Origin: Eubacteriales bacterium OttesenSCG-928-K08
GTDB lineage: Bacteria; Bacillota; Clostridia; Christensenellales; CAG-138
Direction of reading: 5' to 3'
Assembly: GCA_030266105.1 (NCBI GenBank)
Contig: JAJDHH010000006.1
Location: forward strand, 1 to 64,000
Length of the DNA: 64,000 bases
Of this stretch, positions 29,834-48,239 are shown one piece after another. Every line of letters starts with the position of its first letter. Position 1 is the stretch's first letter. Both the position numbers and the translations under genes were made by a program. The notes under the pieces are model-generated. The model ran no database searches. It was given only the letters and a program-made list of their open reading frames with translations, and was not told the origin of the DNA.

Positions 29834-29920
29834 TTCTCCAGCGATAAAGGCAAACCCGTTGAAAGACGGCGACGCAAAGCTACAGGGCCTGAAATGGCAG
29901 CCAGCTACCGAAAGGTGAAA
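29834..29920 (+). ncRNA. cyclic di-GMP-I (GEMM) riboswitch
   Basis: Conserved pattern aaaggCAAACccgttGAAAgacggcGACGCAAAGCtacaggGCCTgaaatggcaGCCAGCTACCG; located 5' of a secreted-protein gene. Confidence 0.88.
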
Positions 29921-40173: not shown

Positions 40174-40250
40174 GGGGATGTAGCCCAGTTGGTTAGAGCG
40201 CTTCGCTCACATCGAAGAGGTCGTTGGTTCGAGCCCAATCATCCCCACCA
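40174..40250 (+). tRNA. tRNA-Val(CAC)
   Basis: Acceptor GGGGATG/CATCCCC, anticodon stem cttcg-ctCACat-cgaag, GGTTCGAGCCC, encoded CCA. Confidence 0.93.
40206..40250 (+). repeat. attL-like direct repeat (3' half of tRNA-Val)
   Basis: ctcacatcgaagaggtcgttgGttcgagcccaatcatccccacca. Confidence 0.9.
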
Positions 40251-40255
40251 GAGAG

Positions 40256-40284
40256 AAAAACCGCCTGATTTAGGCGGTTTTTCT
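40256..40284 (+). terminator. hairpin terminator immediately after tRNA-Val
   Basis: aaaaaccgcctgatttaggcggtttttct. Confidence 0.8.
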
Positions 40285-40345
40285 GCATCTTGTGATGAAG
40301 GCCGCTGGGCCGGTTTTTTACCATTTTGCATGCAAAAGACGTATT

Positions 40346-40669
40346 TTACTGCATTTTTACTGCATCGGTTTTATTTTGTACCGTTTTGTTGCCCAGTATA
40401 GCCCCAAAATGCTGGTTTAGCGCTTCAACCGCTTGCCCTTCCTTTTGTGAAGATAAGTGCGTATACACCTTTAAAGTAATATCCACATTGGCATGGCCCA
40501 TGAACTTCTGTGCACTCTTCACATCAACACCGGCATCATATAGCATGGTGGCGTAGAGAATACGTTTACTCATGCCCGCCTCCGCACCTCCATCTTTGTA
40601 CATTATTGCAATAAGTCGCAATTGCGTTTTATTTACTCTAATAGCACCATTGCATTCTGTGCCTGTCAA
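40346..40669 (-). pseudogene. C-terminal remnant of a phage-type tyrosine integrase
   Basis: YATMLYDAGVDVKSAQKFMGHANVDITLKVYTHLS retained; N-terminal and core domain absent and the HxLRHT box degenerated to MSKRIL. Confidence 0.85.
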
Positions 40670-40726
40670 ACGTATAATGATAAAAATACGAAAAATCGCA
40701 AATGAAATTTAAAAGAAAAGATAGCT

Positions 40727-41584
40727 ATGCGAACGCAAACAAAAGAATGGATGATGGGGGAATCCCGCGAGGCATACCTGCGCAGGCTGGTTGATGCATC
40801 CGGAAAAACCATTAAGCAAATTGCGCTGGATGCCGGTATTCCAGTGTCTACCTTGAGCACGATACTCAAGCGTGGCATTGGCGGTGCATCCTTGGATATT
40901 GTATTGAAAATATGCACGGCGCTTGAGCTGGATGTGGATTCTCTTGCAAGAGGCGTGCAAACGGGAATGGATGCGGATGCATTACGCACTGTGAAAGCAG
41001 CGGAGCGCCTTATGACGGCGCGGTATGCACTGCGCTACCGGGCTGCGGCGCTTGCGGCCATGCTGGATATCCCGCTTTCGCACTATATGTGGTTTGAATC
41101 GGCAAATTACCATGTACCCATGCGGTACTTGGAAAAGCTGGCGGAGATAATGGACGTATCGCTGGATTATCTGACCGGGAAAGCAGATAAGGATGAAGCG
41201 GTATTTGCCACTGTAGGGGATGAATCCTTTTATAATTTGCCCGCACCGGATGAATATGAGGAATGCGATATGGGGGAGGCCATTCGGCGGAAGAGATTAA
41301 AGGATGGATTGTCGCTTGAAGATGCGGCTGAAAAGATGAGGACAACAGCAGATTTGCTTAACCAATGGGAAGCGCGAGTGCGAGTGCCGACACGGGATAA
41401 ACTGTTGGATATTTGCAATGGACTGGGAATGGAGTATAATGCTCTTTTTAGTATACCTGCCAATCCTGATGAGGATATTCCGCTAACGAAAGAAGAAGGC
41501 GATATGCTTCATGCATACCGTAAGGCCGATCAAAGGGATAGGGATGCTGTAGGCGTTATTTTAGGGAGGTATGCTTCTCTTTGA
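40727..41584 (+). CDS. XRE-type regulator with three HTH-like segments
   Basis: KTIKQIALDAGIPVSTLSTILKRG; ALAAMLDIPLSHYMWFESANYHVPMRYLEKLAEIMDVSLDYLTGK; AIRRKRLKDGLSLEDAAEKMRTTADLLNQWEARVRVPTRDKLLDIC. Confidence 0.82.
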   Translation: MRTQTKEWMMGESREAYLRRLVDASGKTIKQIALDAGIPVSTLSTILKRGIGGASLDIVLKICTALELDVDSLARGVQTGMDADALRTVKAAERLMTARYALRYRAAALAAMLDIPLSHYMWFESANYHVPMRYLEKLAEIMDVSLDYLTGKADKDEAVFATVGDESFYNLPAPDEYEECDMGEAIRRKRLKDGLSLEDAAEKMRTTADLLNQWEARVRVPTRDKLLDICNGLGMEYNALFSIPANPDEDIPLTKEEGDMLHAYRKADQRDRDAVGVILGRYASL

Positions 41585-41738
41585 GCCTAAGGTTGTCTGT
41601 TTATGGGATATATTTGATTACATAAAACGGAAAATTCGTATATGAAAGGTGCATTGATGCCTGAAGTAAAATTTGATACAATGATTTATAATTGTTTCGG
41701 AATGCTCAAACGGCACCAATTATGAGGGTATAGCAACA

Positions 41739-42065
41739 TTGGAAATTTTCTTTTACTTGTTTAAAGGGTTGGTTTGGTTCTTAGGCTTAAGTGCGGCTGC
41801 AATTCTTGTTTTTTTGGTCACAATGATGATTTTTGAGATACTTTATTTTGTTTATAGGGTGCTTCGATCTATTGTCTTATTCATTTTAAGGCTTTTCGGC
41901 CGGCGGCCAAAGCCGAAGATGTCTCCGTTTGAAATCAAACTACACATATTACATATTCGTTTCAACAACATGTTTAGCAGCAGCTCTGGATCGCGTGGCG
42001 ATCCCTACGACCTAAATAAACTTACCCGCGAGGAAAGGGACAAGTATTATCCCGGTGGGTGGTAA
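41739..42065 (+). CDS. hypothetical small membrane protein
   Basis: TTG-start ORF, two hydrophobic N-terminal segments, C-terminal DPYDLNKLTREERDKYYPGGW. Confidence 0.5.
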   Translation: MEIFFYLFKGLVWFLGLSAAAILVFLVTMMIFEILYFVYRVLRSIVLFILRLFGRRPKPKMSPFEIKLHILHIRFNNMFSSSSGSRGDPYDLNKLTREERDKYYPGGW

Positions 42066-42139
42066 TGCATAAAGGTAAGCAAAAGTCAGCTGGGCAATTG
42101 TTGTGGTTTGAACAGACACATACTCGGAAGAATAAATAA

Positions 42140-42630
42140 TATAAAGAGGTCTATAATGAGTTTTTACCAACAGTATGGCATGCCCCTGTTGCCCTTTGCT
42201 GGAATGATGATAATTATTATGTAATCACTTACAACGGCCGCTATGATAGCTTTACCCATTATCGCGTTGACCGAATGAATAGTGTTACCGCTTTGGATCA
42301 GGATGGCGACCCATTCAATAAAAGTAAATTGAACATCGCGAAATACTCAAAACGGCTTTTTGGAATGTATGATGGCGAAATGGTTCGGGCAAGGCTGTCG
42401 TTTCATATAGTCTTGTTAGCGTTGTGCTGGACCACTTCGGGAAAGGCGCAAATATGAGGCCATTCTATGATGATTGGTTTGCAATATCTGCCGATATTGC
42501 AGTAAGCCCGGTATTCCTATCCTGGATGTTCGGTTTTGGAAGTTTGGCTATGATCAAAGAACCGGATACCTTGATCACAGCAATGAAAGAACTGCTTGAG
42601 CAAAACCGCGAACATTATCCCGACCGGTGA
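42140..42630 (+). pseudogene. frameshifted C-terminal fragment of a WYL-domain regulator
   Basis: Frame A: VALCWNDDNYYVITYNGRYDSFTHYRVDRMNSVTALD...YSKRLFGMYDGE; continuation VVLDHFGKGANMRPFYDDWFAISADIAVSPVFLSWMFGFGSLAMIKEPDTL is in another frame; shift near 42405-42425. Confidence 0.8.
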
Positions 42631-42709
42631 TTCATTGTCCGTACAATCGGACACTCCCTGTGATATGATTGACATACAGAAAGCGGAAAACTCTTGGGAG
42701 GGATATCCT

Positions 42710-43024
42710 ATGTACGAGAGAAGCCGACATTTGATGGATTGCCATATTGCAGGATTTAACTATTATGATGGGCTTGATGTCATTGAAGAACTGAAACTTG
42801 GAACAACGATAACGCTGAAGTCTGAACCTGAAAACCTATATGACCAAGAAGCAGTGGCCATTTATTATGGGAAAGCCAAGCTTGGCTATATTCCACAGGC
42901 GAAGAACCGTACGCTGAGCAATCTAATTTACTTTGGACATGGGGATATTTTAGAGGCAAGAGTGAACTACAACAATCCGCAGGCGCATGCTGAGAGCCAA
43001 TTTCGCATCGTGATTAAACTATAA
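42710..43024 (+). CDS. stand-alone HIRAN domain protein
   Basis: HIAGFNYYDGLDVIEELKLGTTITLKSEPENLYDQEAVAIYYGKAKLGYIPQAKNRTLSNLI; RBS gggaggg before ATG 42710. Confidence 0.8.
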   Translation: MYERSRHLMDCHIAGFNYYDGLDVIEELKLGTTITLKSEPENLYDQEAVAIYYGKAKLGYIPQAKNRTLSNLIYFGHGDILEARVNYNNPQAHAESQFRIVIKL

Positions 43025-43061
43025 GGATAACAACCGTTAGATCCAAGCGAGGAGAACGAAT

Positions 43062-43811
43062 ATGTCAAGACAGAGAACGGCAATGATCACCTGCCCTACC
43101 TGTGGCACAAGCTTCGAAACGAGATATTGGGAATCCCTAAACGCGGAGATGAATCCGGCAGAAAAAGAGCAATTGTTGTCCGGCAAACTCTTTTACACGA
43201 CATGCCCAAATTGTCATGCACAGCATCAGTTCGTGTACCCAATGCTATATCACGATATGACGCACAAATTGATGGTATGGCTTTTGTTTGAGGAGGAGCA
43301 GATCAGAGTTTTATTGCATGAAATGGATGGGGTGAGGACTTCATCTTTAATGATTTCACAGACAGGGTATCATTATAGGTTTGTAAGAAGTATAAATGAA
43401 TTGCGTGAAAAGGCGATGATTTTCGCATATGGATTGGATGACCGCGTGATTGAAGTGTTGAAACTATTTCAAAGAAGCATAATACATAAGAAGCTGCCGC
43501 ATGTAAAAGTAAACCGCACTATGTTTTTTCCAGGCTCACCACATCAACTTATTATTTTTGCTGGTGATGGTGCGACATACACAACAGAGCTAATAATGGA
43601 TCCATATGAAGAAATTGCTCAGACCAGAAAAAACAGAATGGATGAGCGCTCACGAGGCTGTGTCTGTATAGATGAAAAATGGGCGTTTGATTTATTGCAG
43701 AATTATGGTGTCTACAACAAGAACCTCCCCCTAATGTATGTTCATTATGGTAATGAATACATGGGGTTTTCAGACGGAACTGATAAAAGCATGTGCCTAT
43801 GTTCATGCTAA
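43062..43811 (+). CDS. CpXC domain protein
   Basis: ITCPTCGTSFETRYWESLNAEMNPAEKEQLLSGKLFYTTCPNCHAQHQFVYPMLYHD; two CPxC motifs. Confidence 0.82.
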   Translation: MSRQRTAMITCPTCGTSFETRYWESLNAEMNPAEKEQLLSGKLFYTTCPNCHAQHQFVYPMLYHDMTHKLMVWLLFEEEQIRVLLHEMDGVRTSSLMISQTGYHYRFVRSINELREKAMIFAYGLDDRVIEVLKLFQRSIIHKKLPHVKVNRTMFFPGSPHQLIIFAGDGATYTTELIMDPYEEIAQTRKNRMDERSRGCVCIDEKWAFDLLQNYGVYNKNLPLMYVHYGNEYMGFSDGTDKSMCLCSC

Positions 43812-43838
43812 AAACAATCCATCGAAAACAGAGTAAAG

Positions 43839-44525
43839 ATGTTTATGCAGAATTATCAATATGATTCTTGCTTGAATCCACGCGACGAACTGCTACTCGC
43901 ATTTCTCGGGCGACCAACCTACTTCAGCGATGAAATAAAAAGCAGCCAACTCCCCTTTGGCGAAGCATGGCTTTCTCTCTTACAGTTTAGAGATGGGCTG
44001 TGTCATGTATGTAATAGTCAAAATCCAGATTACAGATACTCTGCTAGTATCTATGAGAGCGACTTTAAAAAACAATGGGGACACTACATGAGAAGCCGCT
44101 ATTTTCATTACGGAATCGACGAAAGGGAGTATTGGGGGGTATACTTTGTTGAAGAAGCATTGTCGATTCAACACAAAAAAATGCTTTGCCCAACAAAAGA
44201 TGAGATGGAAAGCGAGCTGGGTGGATACCGTAATGAGCTGGATAGACTGTTTGCTTTACCAAAAGTTGAGTTCGAAGCAATTGTCTATTATCGAACTAAG
44301 ACAAAAGTGTTGCGAGATAAGAAGATACTCACAAGTTATGATCTTGCCTGCTCATTAAATATGGATGAAGAGTTTATGCAAAGCGTTTATAGCATTGTCC
44401 ACAAGCGGTTTTTAGCTGTACGTAAATCAATTCGTGACGAACTAAAAAAGATGATACCAAAAGAAGAAAAAACCTTCTACTTCAAAATCGAACAAGAACA
44501 AAGCTACATAGTATGTGAATCTTAA
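43839..44525 (+). CDS. hypothetical protein (228 aa)
   Basis: Intact ORF tightly following the CpXC gene; contains CHVCN; no family recognised. Confidence 0.7.
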   Translation: MFMQNYQYDSCLNPRDELLLAFLGRPTYFSDEIKSSQLPFGEAWLSLLQFRDGLCHVCNSQNPDYRYSASIYESDFKKQWGHYMRSRYFHYGIDEREYWGVYFVEEALSIQHKKMLCPTKDEMESELGGYRNELDRLFALPKVEFEAIVYYRTKTKVLRDKKILTSYDLACSLNMDEEFMQSVYSIVHKRFLAVRKSIRDELKKMIPKEEKTFYFKIEQEQSYIVCES

Positions 44526-44537
44526 GGAGAAAGTTAT

Positions 44538-45401
44538 ATGCAACAAATTGTTTCTGACCATTATGAAATTTATCATGATAGGCGAAGCGTGATTGTTTAC
44601 TCAACAGATCGACTCACATTTGAATCTAAAGGATGGCAGATCCAATTAAAAAGTGACGTAAGAAATGCAGTTGAGCAATTGAGTACATATAAAGACGAAG
44701 GCATTATTGCAGTATATGGGGTCGATAATGACAATTATTTTATCGATACGGAAAATGCTCTTTTTTACAATATGGGAACCGCAGCATTTCGAGAAATAGC
44801 TCATTACAAAATAGCGTATGACACGCTATCCCCCGAAGAAAGCAGTCTTCTATTCGCACAAGCGGGGCTGAAAAAATATCATCATTATTACTCCTATCAG
44901 GTTAGTGGGTTTTCTCTCTGCAAAACATCTCCAGTGCTATCGTGGGAAAAAATGGAGCTTTTTTCTTTGCGAGGAGAACATAAACCTTTCGACTATTGGA
45001 AATTATTGAGAGAACATATTGACGAAGTTGTAGTGCATCAAGACAAAGCTATGAAAGGTCAGTTTGGTATTGAATTGCATATATATGAACCGAATGTAAA
45101 GACCATTAATCTTGCTAATCCGATGAAGGCTCTTTTAGATGGCATCATTTGTGCTTTCCACAAAATGCCGATGGAAGTTGACGAAGAACTTATTGCCATT
45201 GTCAGCCATCGTCTTAATATATCCGATCAAACGCTTTTGTATAATAGCAAAGCAGTGCTTGGTGAAGAGGTATTTGTAAAACCTTACCGCAATAATGTGA
45301 TATGGAACCCACAGGACGACCGGTGTTCGACAGTAAGTATAAGTATCGAATACGGATCATCAAAAAGATGCATTAGCGGAAAAATATACGAAGTGTTATG
45401 A
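44538..45401 (+). CDS. hypothetical protein (287 aa)
   Basis: Intact ORF with RBS aaggaga, 12 nt after the previous stop; no family recognised. Confidence 0.75.
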   Translation: MQQIVSDHYEIYHDRRSVIVYSTDRLTFESKGWQIQLKSDVRNAVEQLSTYKDEGIIAVYGVDNDNYFIDTENALFYNMGTAAFREIAHYKIAYDTLSPEESSLLFAQAGLKKYHHYYSYQVSGFSLCKTSPVLSWEKMELFSLRGEHKPFDYWKLLREHIDEVVVHQDKAMKGQFGIELHIYEPNVKTINLANPMKALLDGIICAFHKMPMEVDEELIAIVSHRLNISDQTLLYNSKAVLGEEVFVKPYRNNVIWNPQDDRCSTVSISIEYGSSKRCISGKIYEVL

Positions 45402-45587
45402 TCATAGACATTAAATTATAATATTGAGCGATAAAAATTACTATATTTTTACTGCATCAGAAATAATTTAAGGCAGTAAACAGTATAATTATCAGCATAT
45501 AATGAACATAATGGAAATGAGAAAAACCTAGATTTTGTACGGGCTTGCGCCGTTTTCTTCGTGTTTGAAAATCACTCGCCGCGCGTT

Positions 45588-45632
45588 CTCACATCGAAGA
45601 GGTCGTTGATTCGAGCCCAATCATCCCCACCA
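45588..45632 (+). repeat. attR-like direct repeat (displaced 3' half of tRNA-Val)
   Basis: Same 45-nt sequence as 40206-40250 with one substitution (G to A at 45609). Confidence 0.9.
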
Positions 45633-45673
45633 AAAACAAAACGAGTACTTAACGGTACTCGTTTTGTTTTTAG
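45633..45673 (+). terminator. terminator, probably the original tRNA-Val terminator
   Basis: aaaaacaaaacgagtac ttaacg gtactcgttttgttttt. Confidence 0.8.
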
Positions 45674-45701
45674 TGCTGTTATTCAATAAGACTTGAAAAG
45701 T

Positions 45702-45764: not shown

Positions 45765-48239
45765 TTACGTTTGGGGCTGTATATCCTTCATTGTGTTTTC
45801 ATCATATACAGTAAATTGGTCGCGACCGTTTCTTTTCGATTCATATAATGCAATATCCGCTTTGTGTAATAATTCGTTATATGTGATTCCGTCCCTAGGG
45901 GCAAACGAAATTCCTATGCTGAGCGATGAATTAAAAGTGACTCCATCGCTTGCGATAAGTGGAGTTGCCCTCCAAAACTGCACAAGCCGGGATACTCTTT
46001 TGATAATCGGGGAAATATCGGAGGGAAAAGCGCAATAAACAGCAAATTCATCGCCTCCAAGTCGGGCAATTATATCTGTCGCTCTAAAAAAATCCAGCAA
46101 CGCCTCTGCCAGGCGCTTTAATGTTGCATCGCCAACCAAGTGGCCATATTTATCGTTTACTTCCTTAAAAAAGTCGGTATCGATCATTATAAAAGCCGCG
46201 ACCTTATCACCTGTAAGTCCTTTTCTTAAACTTTCTGTCGTTTTTAACTCAAACTCTCTGCGGTTAAACAACCCTGTGAGCACATCTGTTTGAGCGAGCT
46301 TATTAGCAACATCCAGCTCCTCTCGCATGAGCGCATATCCAAGCAGCGCACTCACAGCCTGCACAGTCTCCACATCGTTATTTGATAGGCGTGATAAAAA
46401 CGGCGTTGTCTCCATATTTCTGCCAGTTATTAAAATAGCGGCAATTCTGTTTTCAACGATTACCGGAACCGAAATAAAATAAGCAATGCTCAGGGTCTCT
46501 CGCAGATTGGCAAAAAGAGCTTCATCATCCTCCGCCGTTACTAAAACTGGCTTTTCAGCATCAAGCAGTTCCTCATCCAAAAAAATCTGTTTATTAGTAA
46601 AACGTTCTTTTTCCTCAGCCGTATACCCTTGTGAAACGGCAACCGTAAATGCGCCAAATGTATCGGGAAATAGCAAAACTGTCCTTTGCATATTCAGCGC
46701 GGCATTTATGTGCTGGGCCACGGCAGTGAAAATCTCTCCGTCAGCACCTATACTTTCCTGGCGCAAATCCACAGAAAACTCCGCCAACAAGCTAAAGCCC
46801 AGTCTTTTTTGCTCAAGCTCATGCCTTATGGCGATGGATTTAGCATCAAGCCACAGCATTTTTGCTGCATTTCTTTCCGCCAGCTTTTTAATGCCTTCAG
46901 TTGTAAATGCCGCATCTTCTCCGACCTTTTCTTTGCTATCGGCTGAATATAATTCACATGCTTTTTTCAAATCCCTAGGTTCGCCTTTGGAAAAAACACA
47001 AAATACACCAGTCCAGTCAAGGCCTCTTGGTCGATAGCCGCCGGAAGCAATTTCCACACCGGTATACAAACCCAGAAGGGGTATGTCGTTTTTAACCGCC
47101 TTTAGTATAACGTAGGCGTCCTCCATTTCCACGCCCCCGTATCCGGCACAGCGCCCGGCACAATTTATGTATATTATAAAAAACGGATCGCGCTTCTCCG
47201 CCTCCAATTTTTCGAAAAGCCTATCAATTTTAGGTTGTATATAGTCCAGTCCCAACGAGCGGGACATAATCTGAAATTGGGTTCCTGCATGCATATCAGG
47301 CTCAAACATTATTATTCCGTTTCGTTCAAGATCAACCCCAAGGCACAACCTGCTTGCATAATTATCCTCATCGAAACTCTCCCATTGCCCGCTGCGATTA
47401 ATTCCAAAAAGCAAAAAAAACGGATAATCTTCAGGTTTTAATTCGGGGCCAAGCATGCCATCAATGAATGCTAGCGCCGGTTTGCCGTTAATCTCAAGAA
47501 TTACGGGTCCATCGGCTTTTGTTACTGTATAATATGGAGAGGCCGGCTGGCAACCGTGCATAATTGCGTGGTCAATATAAATATTATCCGAAAAAGACAG
47601 CGCGATAGCGCTGTGCTCACCAATTTTGTTACCCAGATACTGTCGTGTCGGCGTGCACATATGATCTCCCTGCAATCCCGCTCCGGTCAGGTCCGGTAAA
47701 AATCCCAGCCCTTTTTCAATACCTTCCAAAATCCATGTCGCCATTATAAGGCGCAGATTTCCCTGCGTTCTGTCAACAGCATCATAAAAAAGCATTACTG
47801 GAGAATCAGGCCTAATGCCATTTGCATTAAGCTGCTGGCCCAGCCTCATCCCCGTGTTGACTTCGCTTTCGAGCAAACCATCAACTATAGTCGCTTTGCA
47901 ATCGTCATCCTCCAACCAAATGCAAGCAACACCGACCTGGTCGCCCGCATAACCAAACACATCGTTTGTGATGATGCCCGCTGCTCCGCCACCATATATG
48001 TTATTTGAATTTCCAACCGTCTGCGCCACAGCATTACGAAGAATCTCCTGATCATGTCGCGCGGTGCAAAAAAGCAGAACCAAATCGCATGGCAGCTTGC
48101 TTTTGGCTTGGCTAACAGCTTGCATGGCAGCCTGCCGCCCTGCTATTGCACTATCCGGGTTGTTGCCAAATCCTACGCCAACCTTCATTTTTCCACACGA
48201 TACAGTTCCAAATTTGAACTGCATATCTCCTTTCTGCAA
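45765..48239 (-). CDS. FIST N/C sensor - GAF-like - GGDEF diguanylate cyclase
   Basis: FIST-like KVGVGFGNNPDSAIAGRQAAMQAVSQAKSKLPCDLVLLFC...; C-terminal DVLTGLFNRREFE, IMIDTDFFKEVNDKYGH, ARLGGDEFAVYC. Confidence 0.9.
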   Translation of the reverse strand: MQKGDMQFKFGTVSCGKMKVGVGFGNNPDSAIAGRQAAMQAVSQAKSKLPCDLVLLFCTARHDQEILRNAVAQTVGNSNNIYGGGAAGIITNDVFGYAGDQVGVACIWLEDDDCKATIVDGLLESEVNTGMRLGQQLNANGIRPDSPVMLFYDAVDRTQGNLRLIMATWILEGIEKGLGFLPDLTGAGLQGDHMCTPTRQYLGNKIGEHSAIALSFSDNIYIDHAIMHGCQPASPYYTVTKADGPVILEINGKPALAFIDGMLGPELKPEDYPFFLLFGINRSGQWESFDEDNYASRLCLGVDLERNGIIMFEPDMHAGTQFQIMSRSLGLDYIQPKIDRLFEKLEAEKRDPFFIIYINCAGRCAGYGGVEMEDAYVILKAVKNDIPLLGLYTGVEIASGGYRPRGLDWTGVFCVFSKGEPRDLKKACELYSADSKEKVGEDAAFTTEGIKKLAERNAAKMLWLDAKSIAIRHELEQKRLGFSLLAEFSVDLRQESIGADGEIFTAVAQHINAALNMQRTVLLFPDTFGAFTVAVSQGYTAEEKERFTNKQIFLDEELLDAEKPVLVTAEDDEALFANLRETLSIAYFISVPVIVENRIAAILITGRNMETTPFLSRLSNNDVETVQAVSALLGYALMREELDVANKLAQTDVLTGLFNRREFELKTTESLRKGLTGDKVAAFIMIDTDFFKEVNDKYGHLVGDATLKRLAEALLDFFRATDIIARLGGDEFAVYCAFPSDISPIIKRVSRLVQFWRATPLIASDGVTFNSSLSIGISFAPRDGITYNELLHKADIALYESKRNGRDQFTVYDENTMKDIQPQT

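Follow-up and report, generated by a model that had tools for sequence, protein, structure and literature searches.

A decayed island in the 3' end of tRNA-Val(CAC), very probably left by a tyrosine-integrase element

The locus lies in a window of 64,000 nucleotides (the whole stretch of DNA that was analysed, from contig JAJDHH010000006.1 of Eubacteriales bacterium OttesenSCG-928-K08). Features were assigned as listed, with positions counted from the first base of the window and with L and G numbers denoting loci and genomes used in comparison.

40174-40250, + strand: complete tRNA-Val(CAC) gene (ARAGORN; Rfam RF00005, 65 bits), its 3' part very probably now supplied by the island
40206-40250, + strand: proximal att copy (attL), from the anticodon loop to the 3' end of the tRNA gene
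40256-40282, + strand: putative element-borne terminator directly past the tRNA, AAAAACCGCCT-GATTT-AGGCGGTTTTT (CCGCCT..AGGCGG), from the sequence and a similar 40-bp stretch in L151
40344-40366, + strand: two direct repeats of TTTTACTGCAT at the left end, probable integrase arm-type sites; L151, L158, L173 and L174 have similar repeats at the 3' end of the integrase
40346-40669, - strand: tyrosine integrase remnant, homologous part 40388-40564 (PF00589, phrog_1, profile of 11 long relatives)
40727-41584, + strand: XRE-type regulator, open frame of 285 aa with three HTH regions (HTH_31 1.9e-19, HTH_3, HTH_26, RstR-like)
41739-42065, + strand: small open frame with a hydrophobic N-terminus and no convincing family match
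42185-42603, + strand: remnant of a WYL/WCX regulator that lacks its first ~180 residues and is frameshifted near 42430 (tblastn; WCX 4.7e-4)
42711-43024, + strand: HIRAN-domain protein (PF08797, 2.5e-16; mechanical ORF start 42596)
43062-43811, + strand: CpXC-domain frame (PF14353, 7.2e-35; free-standing relatives)
43809-43811, + strand: in-frame TAA nonsense codon within the phrog_19778-homologous region (relatives' profile)
43839-44525, + strand: phrog_19778-like protein fragment, continuing the CpXC frame (phrog_19778, 7e-19)
44538-45401, + strand: orphan ORF, open, 287 aa, no family match
45446-45458, + strand: arm-like repeat at the right end, TTTTTACTGCATC, with only two exact copies in the 64-kb window
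45588-45632, + strand: distal att copy (attR), very probably the displaced original tRNA 3' end, with G53A in the T stem (base 45609)
45632-45671, + strand: terminator past the displaced fragment, very probably the original one of tRNA-Val (fold -21.5 kcal/mol; similar terminators in relatives)

A FIST-GAF-GGDEF protein (45765-48239, minus strand) adjoins the island, and a c-di-GMP-I riboswitch aptamer (29839-29912 of the window, 66.6 bits) lies ~16 kb away from it.

The 3' 45 nt of tRNA-Val were searched against the whole genome assembly (1.83 Mb, 111 contigs, 59% complete). Two copies were found (40206-40250 and 45588-45632; 98% identical, E = 5e-16), a third was absent, and the next match was a different tRNA at 71% identity. 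The repeated segment corresponds to tRNA bases 33-77 and matches in register at 44/45 positions, bearing out the single-mismatch repeat described in the sequence-only reading. On the tRNA fold, its first base coincides with that of the seven-base anticodon loop (CTCACAT), and it ends at CCA; a match bounded in this way is not a chance one, and a start at the anticodon loop is what is expected of an anticodon-type tyrosine-integrase site. No tRNA was called at 45588 by ARAGORN or Rfam and the distal copy, which lacks the tRNA 5' half, is therefore a fragment rather than another tRNA gene. A complete tRNA gene and a displaced 3' fragment, both in the same orientation, are the endpoints by which Islander recognizes an island.

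If an element restored the tRNA 3' half, the sequence past the proximal copy should belong to the element and that past the distal copy to the host; both junctions passed independent tests. The strong terminator earlier said to fit the original tRNA end, AAAACAAAACGAGTAC..GTACTCGTTTTGTTTT, is a perfect hairpin of 40 nt (z = -8.8), with a 21-nt inverted repeat at 45628-45675, 3' of the distal copy. It is typical of the family, many relatives having an A-rich/T-rich hairpin of this form directly 3' of tRNA-Val (for example AAAACAAATGGGAC..GTCCCATTTGTTTTT, straight after tRNA-Val in L113). The proximal sequence was found directly after tRNA-Val in 0/40 family loci, and at none of these 40 did the upstream helicase gene or the downstream FIST-GGDEF gene adjoin tRNA-Val. 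Neither the FIST-GGDEF protein nor the tRNA together with its 5' flank, used as queries, returned a syntenic empty-site relative, and no relative was seen with the island genes at this locus and the second tRNA fragment absent. When the flanks were joined by script, one complete tRNA-Val resulted, with the distal terminator immediately next to it.

The proximal terminator and repeat DNA resembled L151, in G082 of another genus, at 82% over 40 bp and 89% over 27 bp, and there the matching stretches come after a tRNA-Val 3' copy adjoining a decayed related integrase. An element end made up of the terminator and TTTACTGCATTTTTACT repeats is common to the island and to the decayed integrase at tRNA-Val in G082, and related integrases at tRNA-Arg have a comparable repeat (TTTGACTGCATTTTGACTGCA) in the equivalent place. 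Each end of the island carries the arm-like repeat (3 matches with <=1 mismatch, against 0.16 expected), and its copies are probably arm-type integrase sites. These repeats and the element-borne terminator past the tRNA go beyond what had first been noted, as do the HIRAN and CpXC domains and the TAA at 43809-43811.

The proposed integrase remnant pointing at the tRNA was recovered with PF00589 (E = 2.9e-7) and phrog_1 (E = 1.3e-12), on the minus strand and with its 3' end towards tRNA-Val. It aligns to residues ~316-374 of relatives of ~380 residues, the last ~60 being left and the N-terminal ~315 gone; the surviving part presumably includes the catalytic tyrosine region, and the N-terminal binding domains and first arginine box are taken to be missing. 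One of the point lesions could be an artefact of base errors in the metagenome assembly, but such errors would not account for the ~315 missing integrase residues. Matches to the integrase clade were present in 61/103 family genomes, and related integrases were found in equal orientation beside tRNA-Arg, tRNA-Met, tRNA-Asn and tRNA-Val in other genera. Loci with related integrases had no cargo in common with the island beyond generic XRE or WYL matches. A scan of viral contigs with the integrase remnant gave two phage-like contigs, neither at tRNA-Val, and a scan with the att sequence confirmed nothing.

Within the island, the XRE regulator and the broken WYL gene of the sequence-only reading both proved real, the WYL remnant matching residues 183-340 of the full-length WYL proteins of L157/L158 in two successive adjacent frames (tblastn). 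The relatives of the CpXC protein are free-standing and cover its residues 1 to ~216, and the last ~30 codons of the frame are part of the homology region that follows. A profile built from three long relatives scored 56.8 bits across the TAA, against 34.4 and 5.4 for the separate pieces; on this profile, the CpXC frame and the frame at 43839 are one reading frame cut by the TAA. Because the free-standing CpXC relatives stop near query residue 216, the whole looks like a CpXC/phrog_19778-like fusion, natural or made by deletion, that was then cut by the stop. Compared with phrog_19778 family proteins, the island region ~43725-44450 is homologous to their N-terminal and middle part; the island version lacks the C-terminal region of the family, has a CpXC domain preceding it in frame, and is cut by a stop. 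Elsewhere in the bacterial family, two CpXC-domain genes lie adjacent in tandem (L040/L041, G022:C7:24274-25625). Genes of the phrog_19778 family were seen ~1 kb or less from tRNA-Arg, tRNA-Ala and tRNA-Pro (L042 in G235, L044 in G020 and L047 in G433, respectively), which suggests that this family travels on tRNA-targeted elements.

For the orphan ORF, relatives were absent among 103 family and 396 order genomes, and a single-sequence structure model was useless (pLDDT 33). Viral contigs scanned with the 43839 and 44538 proteins confirmed nothing, genome contigs scanned with the 43839 protein gave no match, and a conserved cargo neighbourhood was not found, the CpXC relatives sitting in unrelated contexts. 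The earlier view that the cargo has been retained stood for the XRE, HIRAN, small and orphan frames, which are open, but failed for the WYL and CpXC/phrog_19778-like genes, which are broken; because these two are also damaged, decay is general and not a matter of the integrase alone. No structural, packaging or lysis genes, as in a complete prophage, were present among the island proteins (PHROGs, Pfam), and no relaxase or conjugation genes, as in an integrative conjugative or mobilisable element, were found in the island. The type of parent element (phage, satellite, ICE) is therefore unmarked, with structural, packaging and conjugation genes all gone. A complete match to a known anti-phage defence system was likewise absent, PADLOC giving HTH and HIRAN-domain similarities only; a reading as a defence island was dropped, since the PDC-M03B match of the HIRAN protein covers the HIRAN domain alone.

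We are close to certain that the locus is a decayed, self-immobile tRNA island, made when a tyrosine-integrase element entered at tRNA-Val(CAC). The duplicated att, the two junctions and the loss of the integrase support the integrative element, decayed and probably now immobile, that had been proposed from the sequence. The element would have been phage- or satellite-like in kind, with a tyrosine integrase from the clade common in the bacterial family. Recombination between its attP and the tRNA-Val(CAC) gene, with crossover probably in the anticodon loop, would have restored a working tRNA from the element's copy of the tRNA 3' part and its own terminator (attL), and would have pushed the original 3' end and terminator of the host ~5.3 kb downstream (attR). 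Deletions, frameshifts and a nonsense codon would afterwards have taken away the bulk of the integrase and the front of the WYL gene and broken the CpXC/phrog_19778-like gene, which would leave the island unable to excise by itself.

Base composition, a check suggested at the outset, sets the island apart. Its G+C is 41.2% against 45.4% in the rest, with 0.6% of other same-size windows of the 64 kb as low, and its tetranucleotide distance to the rest is 0.265 against 0.159 ± 0.021 for other same-size windows (maximum 0.204), the most deviant profile in the window. The two halves of the island also differ (43.6% and 38.5% G+C, the lower value being that of the genes at 43-45.4 kb), which might point to two events: a small integrase element in tRNA-Val followed by a later insertion of the 43-45.4 kb genes, or a tandem island whose middle att was lost. 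L151, where an integrase element stands in tandem with a gene-less unit behind tRNA-Val, offers a parallel; the island, however, holds no third tRNA fragment, and mobile elements are usually mosaic in composition, so we regard two events as unlikely and retain a single entry followed by decay.

The assembled part of the genome (59% complete) yielded no further related integrase, so the island is probably immobile. That it could still be mobilised in trans by a related integrase, as a passive rider and not a dead island, draws on the nearly intact att copies and arm-like repeats and on the frequency of long related integrases in the family. Against this stand the lack of another such integrase in the assembled part, the one-base difference between the att copies, and the tRNAs adjoining these integrases, which are mostly other than tRNA-Val; mobility in trans is, in our judgement, rather improbable. 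The one-base difference bears on a further aspect of the decayed island. The displaced fragment has A at tRNA position 53, opposite C61, and the working tRNA-Val copy and the relatives inspected have G. If the crossover lies in the anticodon loop, a precise excision would yield a tRNA-Val with a weakened T stem, lacking the conserved G53-C61 pair. It is tentatively proposed, as a possibility we hold to be somewhat doubtful, that the island is locked in, since excision would destroy or weaken the one tRNA-Val(CAC) gene that the assembly shows; if so, a dead and decaying island would be retained because its end is an indispensable part of a tRNA gene.

A segmental duplication or homologous recombination of the tRNA region, with the integrase scrap incidental, is hardly credible as the source of the second copy: it has no direct support beyond the commonness of integrase matches in the family, and it is opposed by the exact bounds of the repeat at anticodon loop and CCA, the matching arm-like repeats at both ends, the likeness of the tRNA-proximal end to an integrase-element end from another genus, and the differing base composition. 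Entry of an integrase element and subsequent decay stands as the preferred reading, and provides a tidy illustration of tRNA-island death, with mixed lesions in integrase and cargo, an intact restored tRNA and a drifting displaced fragment.

A close counterpart was the decayed element at tRNA-Val(CAC) in G082 (L093/L151), whose integrase C-terminus is ~67% identical and whose terminator and arm repeats are similar. Unlike the island, that element comes after a further tRNA 3' copy, a second and incomplete one, and forms a tandem with a gene-less unit; no cargo common to the island and that element was found. Gene-less units of 130-150 bp were seen ~50 bp past tRNA-Val(CAC) in five other genera, at L092 (G083), L093/L151 (G082), L094 (G120), L107 (G011), L109 (G068) and L116 (G108, several in tandem), and not in the genome carrying the island. 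At the start of each stand 10-11 nt that are the reverse complement of the tRNA T arm of its own genome (inexact in L092), and at the close stand 17-23 nt that repeat the 3' end of that tRNA (followed by another terminator in L092). The units track the tRNA variant of each genome, have a strong branched fold (z -4.8 and -7.9), are single-copy and at the tRNA-Val site in G083, and may represent miniature integrative elements sited at the tRNA 3' end.

The Islander survey describes integration as splitting a tDNA that the island then makes whole again, with the displaced fragment left as a marker of the other end (PMC4383910); 2083 of the 3919 catalogued islands use an anticodon-centred (type A) subsite, and island sizes peak at 13.6 and 39.9 kb (PMC4383910). 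The island is an ordinary member of this well-known kind and records a common, well-understood event, leaving the understanding of the integration mechanism unchanged. It shares with Islander-type islands a tyrosine integrase, here a remnant, adjoining the restored gene, a complete tRNA at one end with a displaced 3' fragment at the other, and a probable crossover region at the anticodon loop. It is small, at 5.3 kb against the two catalogue peaks, and differs in that only the last ~60 residues of its integrase remain, so a rule requiring an intact integrase would skip it; finders with such a rule miss islands of this sort, and past integrations are undercounted as a result.
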